Assembly (NCBI RefSeq): GCF_003732705.1
Contig: NZ_MOBR01000006.1
Coordinates: 268,281 to 332,280, forward strand
DNA length: 64,000 nt
Direction: 5' to 3'
Source: Pseudomonas frederiksbergensis
Lineage (GTDB): Bacteria; Pseudomonadota; Gammaproteobacteria; Pseudomonadales; Pseudomonadaceae
Shown: piece by piece, positions 25,548-63,217 of the stretch
Position numbering within the stretch: position 1 is the stretch's first letter
Layout of the letters: every line of letters begins with the position of its first letter
Notes under the pieces: model-generated
What the model was told of the DNA's origin: nothing
The model's database searches: none
What the model saw: the letters and a program-made list of their open reading frames with translations, nothing else
Program-made: the position numbers and the translations under genes

Positions 25548-28127
25548 TTAGATCCGTGTCTTTAGTGTATAGAGCATTTCGAGCGCACGACGCGGACTCA
25601 TGTCGTCCAGATCCAGTTTGGCCAGTTCATCCAGCACTGGATGCGGCAGGCTGGCGAACATGTCGCTCTGCTGCGGCGCCGCCGGTTTGCCCTTGGCGGT
25701 CTTGGGCACTTCGTGGGGCAGGGCAGTGGCTTCCAGTCGACCCAGGTGCTCGCGGGCGCGCACGATCACTTCGCTCGGCACACCGGCCAGCTGCGCAACC
25801 GCCAGGCCGTAGCTCTGGCTGGCAGGGCCAGGCAGTACGTGGTGCAGGAACACGATGCGTTCGTTGTGCTCGGTCGCATTGAGGTGGACGTTGGCCACCA
25901 GCGGCTGGGCTTCCGGCAACACTGTCAATTCGAAGTAGTGGGTGGCGAACAGCGTATAGGCGCGCAGGTGCGCCAGACGCTCGGCCGCCGCCCAGGCCAG
26001 GGACAGCCCGTCGAAGGTGCTGGTGCCGCGACCGACTTCGTCCATCAGCACCAGGCTGCGCTCAGTGGCATTGTGCAGGATGTTCGCGGTCTCGCTCATC
26101 TCGACCATGAAGGTCGAACGGCCACCGGCCAAGTCATCGCTGGAACCGATCCGGGTAAAGATGCGATCCACCAGGGACAATTCGCAACTAGCCGCCGGCA
26201 CGAAACTGCCGATGTGCGCCAACAACACGATCAGCGCCGTCTGACGCATGTAGGTGGATTTACCGCCCATGTTCGGGCCGGTGATCACCAGCATGCGCGT
26301 GTTGTCGTCGAGGCTCAGGTCGTTGGCCACGAACGGCGTGCTCAGCACTTGCTCGACCACCGGGTGACGACCCTGGCTGATGCGCATGCACGGCTCGCTG
26401 ACGAAGCGCGGGCAGTTCAGGTCGAGGTTCAGCGCCCGTTCGGCGAGGTTGCTCAGCACGTCCAGCTCAGCCAGTGCGGCGGCGGTGTCTTGCAGAGGCG
26501 GCAGTTGTGAGATCAGGTCTTCGAGCAGCGCTTCGTAAAGCATCTTCTCGCGAGCCAGGGCGCGGCTCTTGGCCGACAGCGCCTTGTCTTCGAACGCTTT
26601 CAGTTCCGGCGTGATAAAACGCTCGGCGCCCTTGAGCGTTTGGCGACGGATGTAGTCCGCCGGCGCCGATTCTGCTTGTTTGCTCGGCAACTCAATGAAG
26701 TAACCGTGAATGCGGTTGTAGCCGACTTTCAGGTGCGAGAGACCGGTGCGCGCCTTCTCCCGGGCTTCGAGGTCGATCAGGAACTGCCCGGCGTTTTCGC
26801 TGAGGGATTGCAAGTCGTCCAGCTCGGCGTCGTAACCGGTTTTCAACACGCCACCGTCACGGATGACCGCCGGCGGGTTGTCAATAATGGCTTTTTCCAG
26901 CAACGCCGCGAGTTCCGGGTAGGTGCTGGTGGTCGCGGCCAGTTGGATGATGTGCGGGGCTTCGAGCTCGGTCATAGCCACTTGCAACTCGGGCAGTGCA
27001 CCGAGGGCGTCGCGCAGACGGGCCAGGTCACGCGGGCGAGCGTTACGTAAACCGATCCGCGCCAGGATCCGCTCGATGTCGCCGATTTCCTTAAGCTGGG
27101 GTTGCAGCTTTTCAAAACGGTAGCCATCAAGCAGGCAGGTAATGGAGGACTGACGCGCCAGCAGCACGGTCAAGTCCCGCAGCGGACGGTTCAACCAACG
27201 GGTCAACAAGCGGCTGCCCATGGCGGTCTGGCAGCGATCGACCACCGATTGCAAGGTGTTCTCGCGACCGCCGGCCAGGTTGGTGTCCAGTTCCAGGTTG
27301 CGACGGCTCGCGCCATCCAGCACCACAGTGTCGTCCAGGCGCTCATGGCGCAGGCTGCGCAAGTGCGGCAGGGCGGTGCGCTGGGTTTCCTTGGCGTAGC
27401 TGAGCAGGCAACCGGCGGCGCCGATGGCCAGGGTCAGGTTCTCGCAACCGAAGCCTTTAAGGTCTTGGGTCGAGAATTGTTGGCAGAGACTCTTCAGCGC
27501 CGTATCGCGCTCAAAATCCCACGGCGCCCGACGACGAACCCCACGGCGTTTTTCCGCCGGCAGGTCTTTCGGCCAATCGTCCGGGATCATCAGCTCTACC
27601 GGATTGACCCGCTCCAGTTCTGCCAGCAGGTTTTCCCAGCCTTTGATTTCCAGCACGGTGAAGTTGCCGCTGGTGATGTCCAGCACCGCCAGACCGAACA
27701 GACGCTCGTCACCCAGCACCGCTGCAATCAGGTTGTCCCGACGCTCATCGAGCAACGCTTCGTCACTGACCGTCCCCGGCGTGATGATCCGCACCACCTG
27801 ACGATCCACCGGCCCTTTGCTGGTCGCCGGGTCGCCAACCTGCTCACAGATCACCACCGACTCGCCGAGCTTGACCAGTTTCGCCAGGTAACCTTCCGCT
27901 GCGTGGTAAGGAATCCCACACATCGGAATCGCCTGGCCCGCCGACTGCCCACGGGCGGTCAGGGTGATGTCCAGCAACTTGGCGGCCTTCTTTGCATCTT
28001 CATAGAAGATCTCGTAGAAGTCGCCCATGCGGTAGAACATCAGCTGGTCGGGGTGCTGGTTTTTCAGGCGCCAGTACTGCTGCATCATCGGCGTGTGCGA
28101 GGACAGATCGGAGATAGCTTTATTCAT
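25548..28127 (-). CDS. mutS: DNA mismatch repair protein MutS
   Basis: This 859-residue ATPase recognises mismatches and recruits MutL. The Phe-X-Glu mismatch-wedge motif is in [12 protein letters not shown] near the N-terminus. The Walker [14 protein letters not shown] and the [12 protein letters not shown] motif are in the C-terminal ATPase. Length is normal. It forms the left border of the accessory island; in P. aeruginosa mutS is close to cinA-recA, so the 34.6 kb between them here is extra. Confidence 0.98.
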
Positions 28128-38150: not shown

Positions 38151-39317
38151 ATGGCTGAGGTTTTGAACTTCGAGCACAACGGCATTACCGTCAATGCCAC
38201 TGAATCCCCCGAGGCCATGGGTGGCCTGGGTGACAACGTCATTGGCCTGGTCGGCACCGCGCCGAAAGCCGATCCGCTGATTCCGCGTAACTCCCCGTTC
38301 CGCATCAACAGCTTCACCACTCAGGCACTGCTCGATCCGACCGGCGCCGAGTCGGGCACGCTGTACCACGCGGTGTACCAGATCCTCAAAGTGGTGAAGG
38401 TGCCGATCTACGTGGTCATCGTCGAAGAGGGCACCGCCCCGGCGGACACCATCAACAACGTGATCGGCGGCATTGAGCCGGTGACCGGTCGCAAACTCGG
38501 CCTGACCGCGCTGGGCGGTGTGCCGGAAGACCTGACCATCATTGGTGCGCCAGGCTTCACCGGTACCAAAGCGGTGGCGAGCGAATTCGCTTCGTTCGGT
38601 AAACGCATCAAGGCCCGCGTAGTGCTCGACGGCAAGGATGCCGCGGTCGCTGATCAAGTGACTTACAGCCAGGAATTGGGCGGCGCGGACCTCGGTTTCG
38701 ACCGTTGCCTGGTCGTGCATAACATGCCGGCCGTTTACTCCAAAGCGGCGAAGAAAAACGTGTTCCTCGCACCTTCCAGCCTGGCTATCGCCGCACTGGC
38801 CAAGGTCAAGCAATGGGAAAGCCCGGGCAACCAGGTGACCTACGCCGAAGACGTGTCGCGGGTGGTGGAATACAACATCCTCGACACCTCCACCGAAGGC
38901 GATCTGCTCAACCGTTACGGCATCAGCTATTACGCTCGCACCGTCCTCGGCGGCTTCTCGCTGCTGGGTAACCGCTCCGTCACCGGCAAGTTCATTAGCT
39001 ACGTCGGCCTCGAAGATGCCATCAGCCGCAAACTGGTGAAAGCCGGCCAGAAAGCCATGGCCAAAAACCTGACCAAGTCGTTTATGGATCAGGAGGTCAA
39101 GCGCATTAACGACTGGCTGCAAACCCTGGTCGCCGACGAAACCATCCCGGGTGGCAGCGTGTACCTGCACCCGGAATTGAACAGCGTCGAGAAATACAAG
39201 AACGGCACCTGGTTCATCGTCATCGACTACGGCCGCTACGCGCCGAACGAACACATGGTTTACCAACTCAACGCCCGCGATGAAATCATCGAGCAGTTCC
39301 TGGAGGATGTTCTCTAA
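38151..39317 (+). CDS. Tail sheath protein FI (module A)
   Basis: The 388-residue protein is a P2 gpFI/R-pyocin sheath, the contractile outer tube. LTALGGVPEDLTIIGAPGFTGTKAV, VFLAPSSLAIAALAKV and the C-terminal WFIVIDYGRYAPNEHMVYQL are typical. It overlaps the tube gene by one base (TAATG). It is unrelated in detail to the module B sheath at 45840. Confidence 0.95.
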   Translation: MAEVLNFEHNGITVNATESPEAMGGLGDNVIGLVGTAPKADPLIPRNSPFRINSFTTQALLDPTGAESGTLYHAVYQILKVVKVPIYVVIVEEGTAPADTINNVIGGIEPVTGRKLGLTALGGVPEDLTIIGAPGFTGTKAVASEFASFGKRIKARVVLDGKDAAVADQVTYSQELGGADLGFDRCLVVHNMPAVYSKAAKKNVFLAPSSLAIAALAKVKQWESPGNQVTYAEDVSRVVEYNILDTSTEGDLLNRYGISYYARTVLGGFSLLGNRSVTGKFISYVGLEDAISRKLVKAGQKAMAKNLTKSFMDQEVKRINDWLQTLVADETIPGGSVYLHPELNSVEKYKNGTWFIVIDYGRYAPNEHMVYQLNARDEIIEQFLEDVL

Positions 39318-39823
39318 TGTTTACCAACCGTGTAAGACAGGCCATCGCGGCCACCCTGCAAGGCCTGCCGTTGTCGGCGACTGTTGAAGATTTCACCGCG
39401 CCGAAGATCGAATTCGACATGGAAGAGATGCGCGGCGGGCGCTTTATCGGCGAGGAGATGGCCAAGAGCGGCAAGGTGCTCAATGCCACGCTGACCCTGC
39501 AAGGCGCCGGCCCGGAAATCATGCTGGCGCTCGGTGTGGCGCTGGGCGACGACATTCTGCTGAACGTGCGTGAAGCCGGCCAGGATCAGGACGGCAACAC
39601 CTGGTTCACCTACCACACCGTGGGCGGCAAGCTGAAATCCCTTGAAGAGGCCAAGTTGAAGATGGGCGACAAACCCACCACCACGCTCATCCTGTCCTGC
39701 CGCACCTACAACCGTCTCGAAAACGGCATCCCGGTGATCGACATCGATGTGCGCACCCAGAAGTTCATGCTCAATGGCGTCGACATCCTCGGTGACGCCC
39801 GCCGCGCCGTGTTGCTGCCGTAA
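39317..39823 (+). CDS. Major tail tube protein FII (module A)
   Basis: The 168-residue protein is a P2 gpFII-type tube: TAPKIEFDMEEMRGGRFIGEEMAKS, the KPTTTLILSCRTYNRLENGIPVIDIDV segment and a terminal beta strand. It polymerises under the sheath with the tape measure inside. It starts one base into the sheath stop. Confidence 0.95.
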   Translation: MFTNRVRQAIAATLQGLPLSATVEDFTAPKIEFDMEEMRGGRFIGEEMAKSGKVLNATLTLQGAGPEIMLALGVALGDDILLNVREAGQDQDGNTWFTYHTVGGKLKSLEEAKLKMGDKPTTTLILSCRTYNRLENGIPVIDIDVRTQKFMLNGVDILGDARRAVLLP

Positions 39824-39833
39824 ACCCGATCCC

Positions 39834-39923
39834 TGTGGGAGCGAGCTTGCTCGCGATGGGGCCGGCAGATTCAACACTTGTGTTGCCTGACCCACCGCCA
39901 TCGCGAGCAAGCTCGCTCCCACA
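39834..39923. repeat. REPIN between tube and chaperone genes
   Basis: TGTGGGAGCGAGCTTGCTCG at 39834 and its inverse ending at 39923 flank a centre containing CAACACTTGTGTTG. It splits the module A operon between FII and the tail assembly chaperone. Confidence 0.93.
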
Positions 39924-40007
39924 AAGGGCTTTGCAATCCCTTTGATCTGCATTCTCCAATCGGCATTTACGCAACACCTCCCCATGATCCACCAAGGAAT
40001 TCATTTC

Positions 40008-40589
40008 ATGTCCTGGACGCCTCCTGTTCACGTCTTGCTGTCGCCGATCACCGCCGACACTCAGGCGCAGATCGAGCAGATTCAGCTCAAACCCTTGTTC
40101 TACGCCGCGCAGAAAGAGGCCTTGGCCCATGCCGGTGATGATGAGGACGATCAGTTTTTCGAACTGGCGAAATTGGCCACCGGGCTGTCGGTCAAGGAAC
40201 TCGACCAACTCAAACGCCCGGACTACGTGAGCATCGCCCAGTACGTGCACGAAATGTCGACCCGCCCGGCTTCTTACTTTCTGGAACAGGAAGGGCAGGG
40301 AGATCCATCGGCAGAACCCGACCAAGTACAACTGCTGCAACCGCTCAACCCCGGGGGCCGCAGCATGACTGCGCTGACCCTGGAAATGCCGGTGCTGCGC
40401 GCCACCAAGGCGATGAAGAAACTGAAAACTGCCAAGGAACGCGCTGAGTTCATCACCGCCCATTGCACCGGGTTGATGATCCCCGATCTGGACCTGCTGA
40501 CCGTGCCCGACTGGACACAGCTTCAGGTACGCATCGACGATTTTTTAAACAAACCGGCGGACTTCTTTCGGAGCGCGACATCGAAGTAA
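40008..40589 (+). CDS. Tail assembly chaperone, zero-frame product (module A, E-like)
   Basis: The 193-residue zero-frame protein occupies the gpE position between the tube and tape-measure genes. MTALTLEMPVLRATKAMKKL, KERAEFITAHCTGLMIPDLDLL and the following helix are typical of tail assembly chaperones that coat the tape measure. ATG 40008 follows AAGGA. At codons 179-180 it carries the slippery heptamer T-TTT-TTA, where part of the ribosomes should shift to the -1 frame. Confidence 0.87.
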   Translation: MSWTPPVHVLLSPITADTQAQIEQIQLKPLFYAAQKEALAHAGDDEDDQFFELAKLATGLSVKELDQLKRPDYVSIAQYVHEMSTRPASYFLEQEGQGDPSAEPDQVQLLQPLNPGGRSMTALTLEMPVLRATKAMKKLKTAKERAEFITAHCTGLMIPDLDLLTVPDWTQLQVRIDDFLNKPADFFRSATSK

Positions 40590-40711
40590 TCCTCGATGTG
40601 GTGCCGCTCATTTACCCGGTAAGTGAAGCGGAAATTCTGGAATGGGACGCCGGCAAGGCATTGCGCCGCTACGACATCGCGATCACTCGCCTTGGCGTGA
40701 AACAGGAGTAG
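40547..40711 (+). CDS. -1 frameshift extension of the module A tail chaperone (E'-like)
   Basis: Reading from the slippery site 40541-40547 in the -1 frame gives KQTGGLLSERDIEVILDVVP and then LIYPVSEAEILEWDAGKALRRYDI to a stop at 40709-40711. The fusion would be 234 residues. The extension has no good start codon with SD of its own and ends seven bases before the tape measure, exactly like P2 E+E'. The frameshift is inferred from sequence. Confidence 0.82.
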   Translation, partial: KQTGGLLSERDIEVILDVVPLIYPVSEAEILEWDAGKALRRYDIAITRLGVKQE

Positions 40712-40717
40712 AGCGGG

Positions 40718-42883
40718 ATGGCGGACGATAGATATTCGCTCAAATACGCAGCCCTTGACGACAGTGGGCTGGCGTTCGGTAGTACCAGCATGGCCTCGGC
40801 CGGCACGGGCGTATTGTCAGCACAAGGCATGGGCTCGTCCGCCAGGGATCTTCTGTCTGGCCTCGGCTTGGCGCTGGAAAATGTCGGGCTCAAGCTCGGT
40901 CTGTTGACGACGGCGATTGAGTCGCTGAATTTGAAAATTTCGTCGCAACGTTTGTTGTCCCAAACGATGGGAGCTGGCGCCAAGAGTGAGCCGGCCAACG
41001 AAAAGAGTGCGGGCAAGCCCGGTAACCGTATAGAACCGCCGGACCTGCTCAAACCCGCGATAGAGATGGATTCGGCCATGGCCGATCTGAAGCAGGCAGC
41101 CCAATTGACGCCGCGCCAAAGCGCGGAAATGGTGCAGTCAACCCAGCACATCGCCAGCGCTCCGCTGGTGGCGGCCGGGGGGACTAAAGCGGTTGATCTG
41201 GTGAAGATTGAAAGCCTGGCGGCCACGGCGGGGATCGCCAGTGATCTGCCCAACGCGTCGGACCGACAGTTTGAACTGCTGCGCTTCGCCAGTGACGCTG
41301 GCGTCGCCGCGTCGGCGTTCAAAATGCCGGCTCTGGATGTCGCCGAGATGATGGCCGCCTGGCGCACGTCGATGAAGCTCAGCGGCCCTCAGGCTTTTGA
41401 TCTGGCGGACGCAACCAACCATTTGGGCAAGATACCCGGTGGTGCAAAAGCGGCTGATATCGGTGCGGTTTTGCAGCGTGACGGTGTCGCCGCTACCACA
41501 GCAGGGTTGATGCCTGCCCAAGCTGCTGCGCTGACGGCGGCATTGCTGAACACGGGCACGCAAAAGTCCGACGCCGGCGCTGCGCTCAATAGCATCACGA
41601 CCGCCATGGCCAAGGGTGATCAGGTTTCTGCAAGCGAGCGAGTGGCCTGGCAACAGTTGAAGCTTGATCCCGTGGAGGTGGCTGGTCTTTTACGCCAGCA
41701 GGACAAGGCGCCGGGCGCGGTCATGTCGGTGCTTGCAGCGTTAAACGCACAGCCTGCCGAAAATCGCTCAAGGCTGGCCACCACATTGTTTGCCAACGGG
41801 GACGAAGCGGCGGTGCGCATGTCGCGCAATCTGCCTGACGTCAGCCAAGCCTTCTGGCAGGTGTCCGACAACCGCCAGTACGCCACGTCGCAGTTAGGTG
41901 ACAAGGGCTCGGTGAAGCAAGACGCGCTTGTACAGTCCAGGACCCAACAGGGTCAGTGGAATGTCTTGAATGCGCGCAACGATCGTCTGTCGCTGGCCTC
42001 CGGGAATGCGCTGCTACCCATGGCTGACAGCGCGCTGGGTGCTGCCGGTTCGGTGACTGACAGACTGAGCGAATTGGCCGAAACCCATCCGAAAACCACG
42101 GCGGCTGTTGTCATTGTCATGGCAGCTATCAAGCCGTTGGTGAGTACGCTGTTCAAATCCATTGCGGATGAGGTGAGCAGCCAGGCAGCCAAGGGGGTGC
42201 TGGGTAAGGTGGCACCTCGGCTTCCCGGCCGTTTGGGAGAATTGATCTCCGAAGACTTCAGAAAAACCGGTGGCACGCCCAAACCGGATCTCAAGCTCGC
42301 GAACGCCGCCATGGCAGATGTAGAGCTCGGTCCTATGCGAGGGCTGAGCGGTTCCTTGAGCCCCGTGAAGCGCTTGATTCCTTTGGCGACCGCGTTAAGT
42401 GTTGCCCCCATGGTGGTCGAAGGCGTGATGAACGGCGATGCCCGGATGGTCGGCGCTGGTTTGGGCACCGCTGGCGGCGCCTGGGCGGGTGTTGAAGCGG
42501 GGGCGGTCATGGGTGGCACGGCGGGTGCCTTTCTCGGTCCGTTCGGCGCCGCCTTTGGCGGGCTGGCCGGTGCGGCCGTTGGCGGATTGGCAGGCAGTTG
42601 GATCGGTCAGGAAATGGGGGCCCGGTTGGGCGAAAAACTCAGTGCGCCTGCCGACAGGCTCCTTCCTCCGGATCAGGCCGCTAAAGACCTGACCAACGCC
42701 CAAACCAACAATCAGCAAAACACGGTGAACGCCAACATCTACATCAACGGCCTCGATTCACCCAATACCACCGAATTGGCCAACCTGGTCGTGCAACACC
42801 TTTCCAACCAGTTCGCAATGATGACAACGACCAATCAACTCGCCGTGCGACGTGACACGGCCCTGACCGATGGGGTGGCTTGA
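40718..42883 (+). CDS. Tape measure protein (module A)
   Basis: The 721-residue protein sets tail length. It is mostly alpha-helical and Ala-rich, with a hydrophobic segment near 465-485 (TAAVVIVMAAIKPLVSTLF) and a Gly-zipper region near 570-640 (MVGAGLGTAGGAWAG, FGGLAGAAVGGLAG). These are typical of tape measures that insert into the target membrane. It lies directly after the frameshifted chaperone pair and overlaps the gpU start. Confidence 0.92.
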   Translation: MADDRYSLKYAALDDSGLAFGSTSMASAGTGVLSAQGMGSSARDLLSGLGLALENVGLKLGLLTTAIESLNLKISSQRLLSQTMGAGAKSEPANEKSAGKPGNRIEPPDLLKPAIEMDSAMADLKQAAQLTPRQSAEMVQSTQHIASAPLVAAGGTKAVDLVKIESLAATAGIASDLPNASDRQFELLRFASDAGVAASAFKMPALDVAEMMAAWRTSMKLSGPQAFDLADATNHLGKIPGGAKAADIGAVLQRDGVAATTAGLMPAQAAALTAALLNTGTQKSDAGAALNSITTAMAKGDQVSASERVAWQQLKLDPVEVAGLLRQQDKAPGAVMSVLAALNAQPAENRSRLATTLFANGDEAAVRMSRNLPDVSQAFWQVSDNRQYATSQLGDKGSVKQDALVQSRTQQGQWNVLNARNDRLSLASGNALLPMADSALGAAGSVTDRLSELAETHPKTTAAVVIVMAAIKPLVSTLFKSIADEVSSQAAKGVLGKVAPRLPGRLGELISEDFRKTGGTPKPDLKLANAAMADVELGPMRGLSGSLSPVKRLIPLATALSVAPMVVEGVMNGDARMVGAGLGTAGGAWAGVEAGAVMGGTAGAFLGPFGAAFGGLAGAAVGGLAGSWIGQEMGARLGEKLSAPADRLLPPDQAAKDLTNAQTNNQQNTVNANIYINGLDSPNTTELANLVVQHLSNQFAMMTTTNQLAVRRDTALTDGVA

Positions 42884-44536: not shown

Positions 44537-45039
44537 CTGTGGGAGCGAGCCTGCTCGCGAAGACGGCAGCACATTCACCATCGATGTCGCCTGACCCACC
44601 GCTTTCGCGAGCAAGCCCGCTCCCACAGTTGGCTCAGTGTTCGACACAGCACTTACGCACAACCGAAATTCCCCTGTGGGAGCGAGCCTGCTCGCGAAGA
44701 CGCCAGCACATTCACCATCAATGCCGCCTGACCCACCGCCTTCGCGAGCAAGCTCGCTCCCACAGTTGGCTCAGTGTTCTGCACAGCACTCGCGCACAAC
44801 CGAAATTCCCCTGTGGGAGCGAGCCTGCTCGCGAAGACGCCAGCACATTCACCAACAATGCTGCCTGACCCACCGCTTTCGCGAGCAGGCTCGCTCCCAC
44901 AGTTGGCTCAGTGTTCGACACAGCACTTACGCACAACCGAAATTCCCCTGTGGGAGCGAGCCTGCTCGCGAAGACGCCAGCACATTCACCAACAATGCTG
45001 CCTGACCCACCGCTTTCGCGAGCAGGCTCGCTCCCACAG
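44537..45039. repeat. REPIN followed by a three-unit 137-bp tandem REPIN array
   Basis: One REPIN (44537-44628) is followed by three near-identical 137-base units starting at 44629, 44766 and 44903. Each begins TTGGCTCAGTGTTC and contains a complete REPIN. The array fills the 567-base gap between module A and module B. There is no gene in it, although translated repeats give long spurious frames. Confidence 0.93.
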
Positions 45040-45076
45040 GTTTCGACCGCACCTTTCATACAGATGGAGCGCCCTC

Positions 45077-47751: not shown

Positions 47752-48044
47752 GCGGCGCCGTGAAGCTTCAAGTTGCGATCGAAGCCCACGGCGAGCCCCT
47801 GACCGAACTCAACCTGCGCCGTCCGACGGTGCAGGAAGTGCGGGCGATCAAGGCGCTGCCGTACAAGATCGACAAGAGCGAAGAAGTCAGCCTGGACATG
47901 GACGTCGCGGCCAAATACATCGCGGTCTGCGCCGGCATTCCACCGTCGTCGGTCAACCAGTTGGACCTGGCTGACCTCAACGCGCTGAGCTGGGCCGTCG
48001 CGAGTTTTTTCATGAGTGCGGCGTCGGAGCCATCACCGACCTGA
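47748..48044 (+). CDS. Tail assembly chaperone, zero-frame product (module B, Mu gp41-like)
   Basis: This 98-residue protein matches the Mu gp41/Phage_TAC family (ELNLRRPTVQEVRAIKALPY). It ends in a short tail after the slippery heptamer T-TTT-TTC at 48005-48011, where a -1 shift would extend it. It lies between the tube and tape-measure genes. Confidence 0.88.
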   Translation: MSGAVKLQVAIEAHGEPLTELNLRRPTVQEVRAIKALPYKIDKSEEVSLDMDVAAKYIAVCAGIPPSSVNQLDLADLNALSWAVASFFMSAASEPSPT

Positions 48045-48175
48045 TCGCAGTCGCCTATGACCTGGCCTGGTTCTGGAAGGTTGACCCCGAACAGATGATG
48101 GCCAGGCCACTGGATGTGCTCCGGGAATCCCTGGAGCACGCGCAACGGATCAATGCGATGCAGCAGGTGCAGTGA
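48011..48175 (+). CDS. -1 frameshift extension of the module B tail chaperone (gp42-like)
   Basis: The -1 frame after 48005-48011 encodes HECGVGAITDLIAVAYDLAW and then FWKVDPEQMMARPLDVLRES to a TGA at 48173-48175 that overlaps the tape-measure ATG. The fusion would be 142 residues. No start codon with SD lies at the junction. The arrangement parallels the G/GT, E/E' and Mu gp41/42 systems; shifting is inferred. Confidence 0.82.
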   Translation, partial: HECGVGAITDLIAVAYDLAWFWKVDPEQMMARPLDVLRESLEHAQRINAMQQVQ

Positions 48176-51088: not shown

Positions 51089-52132
51089 ATGAGCGAACTG
51101 GACAACAAAGTCACCCTGACCGTTGACGGTCTGGAGTATGGCGGCTGGAAAAGCGTGCAAATCACAGCGGATCTGGAGCGTCAATTCCGCACCTTCAAAC
51201 TTGACGTGACCTGGCAATGGCCGGGGCAGACCACGGTGCGACGGATTCAGCCAGGGGCGCCGTGCGAGGTGCGCATCGGCAACGATCTGGTGCTCACCGG
51301 GTATGTGTTCAAGGCGCCGATCAGTTATGACGGGCGGCAAATCAGCCTGAGCATCGAGGGCAGTTCGAAAACCCAGGACCTGGTGGACTGCGCGGCGACC
51401 AATCGTCCCAACCAATGGCATCAGCAATCGTTGCTGAGCATTGTCGAGGCGCTGGCGTCGTCCTATAGCGTCTACGTGGCCAGTGAAATTCCGGAAACTG
51501 CCCGGCTCGGCAGTCACACCATCGTGCCGGGGGAAACGGTCTTCCAGTCCATCGACCGGTTGCTGACGCTGTTCCGGGTGTTTTCCACCGACGACGCCCA
51601 GGGCCGGGTGGTCCTGGCGCGTCCGGGCAGCGGAGGCCGAGCAAGCGATGTGCTGGAACTGGGCAAGAACATTCTTTCGGCCAACGCGCCGATGGATTAC
51701 AGCCAGGTGTTCTCTGAATATCGGGTGATCGGCCAGCAGAAGGGCAATGACCAGAAGAGCGGGGCGGCGGTCAGCGAGGTCGAGGCGGTGTCCACCGACC
51801 TGGGCTACAAGCGCAAGCGGGTCACGGTGATCAATGAAGGCATGCAGATCACGCCGGAACTGGCGCTGCAACGCGCCAACTGGGAAGCCGCCACCCGCGT
51901 CGGCAAGGCCTTGACCACCACGTACCAAGTGCAAGGCTGGCGCCAGGCCAATGGCGATTTGTGGCGTCACAACACGCTGGTCAGGGTCAAGGACCCGGTG
52001 CTGGAAGTGGATGGCGACATGCTGATCTCCCAAGTCACCTACTCACTCTCGGCGCAGGGCTCCGTCACCACATTGCAAGTCGCGCCGCCGCATACCTTCG
52101 ACGCCAACCCGACACCGCCGAAGAAGACCTGA
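51089..52132 (+). CDS. Baseplate hub protein (module B, Mu gpP-like)
   Basis: The 347-residue protein is Mu gpP-like. VTLTVDGLEYGGWKSVQITADLERQ at the start, a gp27-type hub fold and VSTDLGYKRKRVTVINEGM are typical. It starts three bases after the gpN stop. A REPIN array follows and separates it from the rest of the baseplate genes. Confidence 0.92.
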   Translation: MSELDNKVTLTVDGLEYGGWKSVQITADLERQFRTFKLDVTWQWPGQTTVRRIQPGAPCEVRIGNDLVLTGYVFKAPISYDGRQISLSIEGSSKTQDLVDCAATNRPNQWHQQSLLSIVEALASSYSVYVASEIPETARLGSHTIVPGETVFQSIDRLLTLFRVFSTDDAQGRVVLARPGSGGRASDVLELGKNILSANAPMDYSQVFSEYRVIGQQKGNDQKSGAAVSEVEAVSTDLGYKRKRVTVINEGMQITPELALQRANWEAATRVGKALTTTYQVQGWRQANGDLWRHNTLVRVKDPVLEVDGDMLISQVTYSLSAQGSVTTLQVAPPHTFDANPTPPKKT

Positions 52133-52140
52133 ACCCAAAA

Positions 52141-52635
52141 CCTGTGGGAGCGGGCTTGCTCGCGAAGGGGTCGTGTCAGTTGAAACAAACATCGCCTGAC
52201 CCACCGCTTTCGCGAGCAAGCCCGCTCCCACAGTGGATCTCCTGCGCACGCAAGTAACGTGAACGACGCCGTCCAAATGTGGGAGCGAGCCTGCTCGCGA
52301 ATGCGGACTGACATTCAACATCGAAGTCGACTGGCCCACCGCTTTCGCGAGCAGGCTCGCTCCCACAGGGAATCTCCTGTGTACACCAATGCCGCGGCAA
52401 CCCCGATCAATTGTGGGAGCGAGCTTGCTCGCGATGACGGCCTCACATTCAACATCGAAGTCGACTGACCCAACGCATTCGCGAGCAAGCTCGCTCCCAC
52501 AGGGAATCTCCTGTGTACACCAATGCCGCGGCAACCCCGATCAATTGTGGGAGCGGGCTTGCTCGCGAAGACGGCCTCACATTCACCAACGATGTCGACT
52601 GACAGGCCGCTTTCGCGAGCAGGCTCGCTCCCACA
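52141..52635. repeat. Four REPINs, the last two in 134-bp tandem
   Basis: REPINs occupy about 52142-52233, 52279-52367, 52411-52501 and 52545-52635. The last two are in a 134-base direct repeat that begins GGGAATCTCCTGTGTACACC at 52368 and 52502. The array fills the 538-base gap within module B and contains no gene. Confidence 0.92.
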
Positions 52636-52670
52636 TGGGTCGGCGTCGGTCCTGATTTAAAGGAACCCCA

Positions 52671-62716: not shown

Positions 62717-63217
62717 GTGAAAGAAATCACCCAGCTGGCCGCTGAACTTGGCAGACGCATGCAGGTTCTCAATGCCCACGTGACGACCGCCGAGTCTTGC
62801 ACCGGTGGCGGGATCGCCGAGGCGATCACCCGTATTCCCGGGAGTTCGGCGTGGTTTGAGGCCGGCTATGTGACGTATTCCAACCGCCAGAAAACCTTGC
62901 AACTGAATGTGCCCGAGGGGTTGTTCGAGACGGTGGGGGCGGTCAGTCGCGAGGTGGTGGAGGCCATGGTTCGTGGCGCGCAGGATAAAAGCCATGCGCA
63001 GTTTGCCGTGGCGGTCAGCGGTGTCGCAGGGCCGGATGGCGGTTCTGCGAGCAAGCCGGTGGGCACGGTCTGGCTGGCCTGGGGCGTCGGCGAAGCGGTG
63101 TTCAGCGAGGTCCAGCACTTCCCCGGCAACCGCGATGAGGTCCGCCGACAAACGGTGAAGGCCGCGCTAGAGGGGCTGCTGCGCCATGCCGCTGGAGAAA
63201 TCTCAAATCAGGGGTAG
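62717..63217 (+). CDS. cinA: CinA-type nicotinamide-nucleotide amidohydrolase (PncC)
   Basis: The 166-residue protein is the CinA C-terminal (PncC) domain alone, deamidating nicotinamide mononucleotide for NAD recycling. [31 protein letters not shown] and [19 protein letters not shown] are diagnostic. The start GTG 62717 follows AGGAGAGG; upstream sequence belongs to the end of the tailocin island. The separate N-terminal CinA domain is normally absent in this gene. recA follows. Confidence 0.94.

Follow-up and report, generated by a model that had tools for sequence, protein, structure and literature searches.

The locus analysed here encodes a headless phage tail, and it raises the question of whether a slip signal near the end of one gene yields two forms, a short and a long one, of a tail-building helper protein. 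The sequence of the window (the whole stretch of 64,000 nucleotides that was analysed, part of a 7.1 Mb genome of Pseudomonas frederiksbergensis) suggests that it should. In the window, mutS is followed by a repressor gene and two contractile-tail modules, designated A and B (Table 1). As read by eye, the sequence at about 62717-63217 resembles cinA and that from about 63301 resembles recA. This arrangement fits the tailocin site between mutS and cinA/recA, which has been described in P. protegens CHA0, where two R-tailocins are each predicted to have their own tape measure (PMC7815802), and in other P. fluorescens strains (PMC2647930).

The original prediction placed a slippery heptamer, TTTTTTA, at 40541-40547 of the module A chaperone gene (hereafter E), and the window sequence agrees exactly, with zero-frame codons GAT-TTT-TTA-AAC at 40539-40550. 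It had also read E as a tail chaperone; this was borne out by the Pfam match, which spans E residues 107-180 in a family titled 'E, or 41 or 14', and by the location of the gene. The gene order in module A is sheath-tube-E-E'-tape measure, with the overlapping chaperone ORFs lying between the tube and tape measure genes. After the slip, the first codon of the -1 frame (E') would be AAA at 40547, and the frame runs for the predicted 54 residues to a TAG stop at 40709-40711. The gap between this stop and the tape measure ATG at 40718 is six bases. The predicted fusion, E+E', comprises 180 + 54 = 234 aa, compared with 193 aa for E. A gene scan of the window did not pick E, which a longer antisense ORF had most probably displaced, and is uninformative on this gene. 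Separately, inspection by eye of the sequence and ORF lists revealed repeated stretches of the GTGGGAGCGAGC type between tail genes (about 39833-39925, 44539-45060 and 52040-52655), including an inverted pair between the tube gene and E.

Table 1. Coordinates of the tail genes, candidate slip sites and flanking genes in the window.
Feature	Position	Strand	Remarks
mutS	25551-28127	-	
S24/HTH repressor	29754		two contractile-tail modules next
Module A tail sheath	38151-39317	+	phrog_23
Module A tail tube (FII)	39317-39823	+	PF04985 Phage_tube
Module A zero-frame tail assembly chaperone E, 193 aa	40008-40589	+	Pfam PF10109 Phage_TAC_7, E 1.9e-16; phrog_166, E 1.2e-52
SD-like AGG	40525-40527	+	13 nt upstream of heptamer
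Putative slippery heptamer T_TTT_TTA	40541-40547	+	zero-frame codons GAT TTT TTA; kept in relatives
Second, overlapping heptamer T_TTA_AAC	40544-40550	+	same phase and same -1 outcome as T_TTT_TTA
Module A -1 frame extension E', 54 residues past predicted slip	40541-40711	+	phrog_18887, E 4.9e-30; dN/dS 0.116 after E stop
Module A tape measure protein	40718-42883	+	PF10145 PhageMin_Tail; TIGR01760
Module B tail chaperone, 98 aa	47748-48044	+	PF10109, E 2.3e-20
Module B candidate slippery heptamer T_TTT_TTC	48005-48011	+	identical in 36/36 distinct contexts
Module B -1 frame extension	48005-48175	+	phrog_11318, E 5.1e-33; TGA 48173-48175 overlaps tape measure ATG (48175)

To compare relatives, we assembled 322 loci, including the window, from genomes of the genus, phages, and viral and genome contigs; of 407 relatives in the first viral scan the best 80 were taken, and of 133 in the genome scan likewise the best 80, the latter all being named Pseudomonas. 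Within the genus, 82 of 298 genomes contained E. Across the class, a genome search matched the window's own genome and no other (1/369 genomes), and the breadth of the comparison therefore rests on phages, plasmids and viral contigs. The -1 frame was held by 320 of the 322 loci. The exceptions, L083 and L084, are E matches of 27-29% with no detectable E', and were left out of every site count. The 320 loci collapsed to 166 distinct 90-base contexts, and T_TTT_TTN occurred at the same position in 165 of these, from Pseudomonas, Aeromonas, Vibrio and Halomonas. The last heptamer base in the 165 contexts was A in 125, G in 18 and T in 22. Among 197 distinct Pseudomonas-type sequences (those for which E' of the window gave the best match, including some metagenome contigs without a host assignment), 193 carried TTTTTTA, three TTTTTTG and one a run of five T. 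The counted sequences share kinship, and these counts are not numbers of independent events. In the 80 genomes of the genus other than the window's own and a 27% match (G021), the site was TTTTTTA in 78, TTTTTTG in one (G063) and five T in one (G034). Five plasmid relatives had TTTTTTG (four) or TTTTTTA (one), and all six T were invariant in a 19-sequence alignment from Pseudomonas to Plesiomonas. The run was seven T in most loci of one Vibrio type (L091-type), and in locus L320 a run of eight T is followed at once by a zero-frame TAA.

The sole exception among the 166 contexts was L069, the locus of G034, which has five T and a zero-frame TAA in the site. The G034 genome consists of a single contig at 95% completeness, and this may be an assembly error. 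L069 was left out of the -1-frame counts and entered the codon-use count by position despite its broken E frame; around 1533-1541 of this locus, a +1 shift would be required to reach E'. By the original prediction, a -1 frame no longer open in close relatives would tell against frameshifting. The frame was lost in one of 193 distinct Pseudomonas-type sequences, an unverified faecal metagenome scaffold (L094) with an early stop, and the site in one of 166 contexts. Codon phase, site and -1 frame were retained from Pseudomonas to Vibrio.

The bases of the site are also conserved where the E protein leaves them free. In the 70 upstream codons of the 193 TTTTTTA sequences, TTT encoded 3 of 197 Phe and TTA 6 of 2376 Leu. 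The Asp codon that precedes the heptamer was GAT in 194 of 197 sequences, compared with 170 of 730 upstream. The first heptamer base and the third base of the TTT codon are synonymous in E and unread in the -1 frame, yet are invariant, which points to the slip site itself. For the last heptamer base, A or G decides between Lys and Glu in the -1 frame, which is a competing reason for its conservation. Further, coding constraint shifts to the -1 frame at the slip site: diversity at -1-frame codon positions 1, 2 and 3 was 0.295, 0.091 and 0.081 upstream, and 0.045, 0.040 and 0.246 after the E stop. Past the E stop, dN/dS in the -1 frame was 0.116 (mean dS 0.47; 391 usable of 400 sampled pairs). 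Thus, the E' frame is under purifying selection at the protein level.

These results bear on three other accounts of the locus. An open -1 frame beside a heptamer might be a coincidence of base composition, since long open frames are common in the window and TTTTTTA occurs five times in its 64 kb, compared with 2.70 expected (at least five were reached in 13 of 100 shuffles). As a bare motif, the heptamer is near chance; comparison with relatives takes it far from that level. The conservation at synonymous positions and the purifying selection in the -1 frame contradict coincidence, and a chance origin, rejected on the relatives, has a negligible probability. At the level of sequence, we regard the comparison of relatives, unlike the motif count, as decisive for the slip site. 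Alternatively, E' might be a small gene of its own, started at an internal GTG or by a restart at a GTGA overlapping the E stop. The statement of the original prediction that the -1 frame lacks its own start codon does not hold strictly: a TTG at 40463 and GTG codons at 40598 and 40601 are present. In Pseudomonas-type sequences, GTGA was found at the E stop in 95 of 202, the two GTG (-1-frame codons 18 and 19) in 120 and 142 of 193, and the upstream TTG in 97 of 193 distinct sequences; none of these three starts is universal. Of the 14 annotated relatives, L087 and L330 enter E' as a hypothetical protein in its own right. The family phrog_18887 (41 positions, no assigned function), which matches the window at 40586-40708, begins at the GTGA codon, 14 codons into E'. 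This family appears to be a truncated E' started at the GTG that overlaps the E stop. Against a separate gene, the E stop is GTAA in the other 107 of 202 Pseudomonas-type sequences, the window included, and 108 of 266 distinct sequences have no ATG, GTG or TTG from the last -1-frame stop through codon 16; in 18 of 266 a -1 stop lies within three codons of the slip. Residues of the -1 frame are conserved from the heptamer onward, 14 codons before the GTG, in a stretch that is partly coding in E too, and a separate start would leave the conservation of the six T unexplained. No start codon being common to all relatives, we rejected a separate start, which is very improbable.

The two frames could also be joined in the mRNA if RNA polymerase slipped on the T run and inserted a base, giving two mRNAs. 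Transcriptional slippage serves some bacterial genes, including the contractile-system gene tssM (PMC4256274). All slip sites of the family are T runs, and for this reason sequence cannot fully separate slippage of the polymerase from that of the ribosome. Polymerase slippage is independent of phase and favours longer runs, unlike these sites: the phase NNT TTT TTN was identical in every module A, module B and P2 type site examined, and the run was six T, the exceptions being YeP1 and most loci of one Vibrio type, with seven, and L320, with eight. Further, an AGG upstream of the site is conserved, and the P2 record labels its T6G site translational. Weighed on phase and run length only, slippage by the polymerase is improbable, if slightly less so than a separate gene.

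We consider it very probable, essentially in line with the original prediction, that module A E carries a programmed -1 frameshift site from which both E and E+E' would be made. From the site and frame, their conservation and the selection on both frames, we infer a slip with the following rate, products and roles. Most ribosomes would finish E at its own stop, and a minority would slip back one base on T_TTT_TTA, or perhaps on the overlapping T_TTA_AAC, to make E+E'. The junction from the first heptamer would read Asp-Phe-Leu-Lys-Gln or Asp-Phe-Phe-Lys-Gln, and that from the second Asp-Phe-Leu-Asn-Gln; owing to the tandem overlap, the two slips would yield products equal in length and distinct in a single residue. 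If the parallel with lambda gpG/gpGT and P2 E/E+E' holds, E would coat the tape measure protein, E' would recruit tube subunits, both forms would be made in a fixed ratio, and neither would remain in the finished tail.

The tandem arrangement is frequent: T_TTT_TTA was overlapped by T_TTA_AAC (100) or T_TTA_AAT (25) in 125 of 129 distinct Pseudomonas-type contexts. According to one article (PMC5009743), few heptamers make mammalian ribosomes shift as readily as U_UUA_AAC, HIV frameshift products are heterogeneous, and in Escherichia coli constructs U_UUU_UUA shifts far less than A_AAA_AAG. The weak shift in these constructs counts against the frameshift reading. The SD-like AGG is a possible upstream stimulator. 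Its distance to the heptamer was 13 nt in 154 of 162 distinct Pseudomonas-type contexts and 7 nt in 30 of 46 others, and it was weak in the Aeromonas type; the Gln codon that holds the AGG region was CAG rather than CAA in 189 of 196 Pseudomonas-type sequences. Stimulatory SD sequences of the dnaX type lie about 10-14 nt upstream. Folding without pseudoknots, compared with shuffles, revealed no hairpin conserved in the first 50 nt downstream in the Pseudomonas type (mean z 0.34; 10 sampled of 120 distinct sequences). Over the same length, mean z was -1.96 in the VP882 type (n = 5), 0.20 in the Aeromonas type and -1.37 in one Vibrio type (10 sampled of 24). For the first 93 nt downstream in the window, none of 200 shuffles folded as well (z -2.75), and mean z for this length was -2.22 in the Pseudomonas type. 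This modelled, distal structure, its main stem lying about 25 nt beyond the site, may aid the slip. Some tailed phages shift without stimulators (PMC5009743).

Module B has a second candidate for programmed frameshifting, T_TTT_TTC (Table 1). Among five phages with relatives of this module, four had T_TTT_TTC and one, YeP1, seven T. Folding of the module B stretch gave z -1.92, with 6 of 200 shuffles as good. No module B protein was seen in the 11.5 kb covered of three module A relatives (L061, L064 and L067), and there was no detectable sequence relationship between the module A and module B extensions. The two tail modules lie side by side and their candidate slip sites end in different bases, which makes these sites a natural pair for relating chaperone ratio to tail length.

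Module A E lay about 9-22 kb from mutS in 68 of the 80 genomes of the genus; of the other 12, six had both genes on one contig at a distance of 48-73 kb, and in six, among them G063 with its TTTTTTG, E and mutS were on different contigs. It is conceivable, although unlikely, that when a VP882-like tail became a mutS-linked Pseudomonas tailocin, the T_TTT_TTG seen in three Pseudomonas plasmid prophages gave way to the tandem T_TTT_TTA_AAY, in which a heptamer of the HIV type and one of the coronavirus type meet on a codon that E uses very rarely; the change may set a different ratio of E to E+E' and help to fix particle length or yield. The direction is inferred, and the change may represent a single event. 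The mechanism itself is textbook, and the tandem heptamer in a tailocin lineage is the only mildly novel point. In the literature within our scope, which excluded most subscription papers, we recognised no paper reporting the module A site. Of 14 phage and plasmid relatives with annotation, 12 lacked an entry for E', and there was no joined CDS in the nine phage records, which are the records this count covers since the plasmid table cannot show joins. With E' mostly unannotated, moving or recoding E alone could lose E+E'.

Among known systems, P2 E/E+E' and lambda G/GT, both named in the original prediction, serve as the models. Passed through the same procedure as a positive control, P2 gave T_TTT_TTG, in the same phase, where its record annotates a -1 translational frameshift. 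The zero-frame product of module A falls in the Pfam family whose title names E. In both systems, a T6 site of like codon phase stands close to the 3' end of the chaperone gene, and a -1 extension reaches up to the tape measure. In contrast to P2, E here has 193 aa rather than 91, the last heptamer base is A, and module A has a tandem second heptamer. Phage_P2_GpE (PF06528) gave no match up to E 10 with E' of the window and four relatives (P2 control, 2.1e-22). Profile comparison of E' with P2 E' by hhalign gave E 0.014 (probability 3%), and with P2 alone E 0.00013 (probability 54%). Homology to P2 E' is not established for the module A or the module B extension, and it is by analogy that module A E' would work like that of P2 E+E'. 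P2-like phages with T7G or T7C have been published (PMC3931495).

The tail of lambda is non-contractile, a difference from module A. The lambda gpG/gpGT pair likewise comes from one gene as two chaperone forms via a -1 slip, at a ratio near 30:1, and the shift in P2-type phages is two to three times as frequent (PMC5009743). For two HK97-like chaperone sites, frameshifting was measured at 6% and 7% (PMC3711429). Mu also has a chaperone gene with a shifted extension ahead of its tape measure, but by a -2 shift (PMC5009743); the final 75 nt of the Mu chaperone gene held no heptamer of this sort, and it was the +1/-2 frame that stayed open almost as far as the tape measure. A Mu-type -2 frameshift was rejected for modules A and B, the extensions of which lie in the -1 frame. 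The original prediction correctly equated the heptamer with U_UUU_UUA of HIV gag-pol (PMC5009743); in contrast to HIV, the window's own type shows no evident structured stimulator near its site.

SfV-type tails, the type of module B, share a T_TTT_TTC site and a -1 extension, and differ in an E' sequence not detectably related to that of module A. Related tail genes were also seen on 13 plasmid records of Pseudomonas, Vibrio, Aeromonas and Plesiomonas (L330, L331, L332, L333, L334, H60-H72). VP882/phiHAP-1 (Hapunavirus) and related plasmid prophages have direct homologues of both E and E' with the site at the same position. Those examined differ in having T_TTT_TTG, except for T_TTT_TTA in one Vibrio plasmid and T_TTT_TTT in one Vibrio group. 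The module A site would be of a known kind of frameshift, now suggested by sequence for VP882/phiHAP-1-type tails and for the R-tailocins of Pseudomonas.
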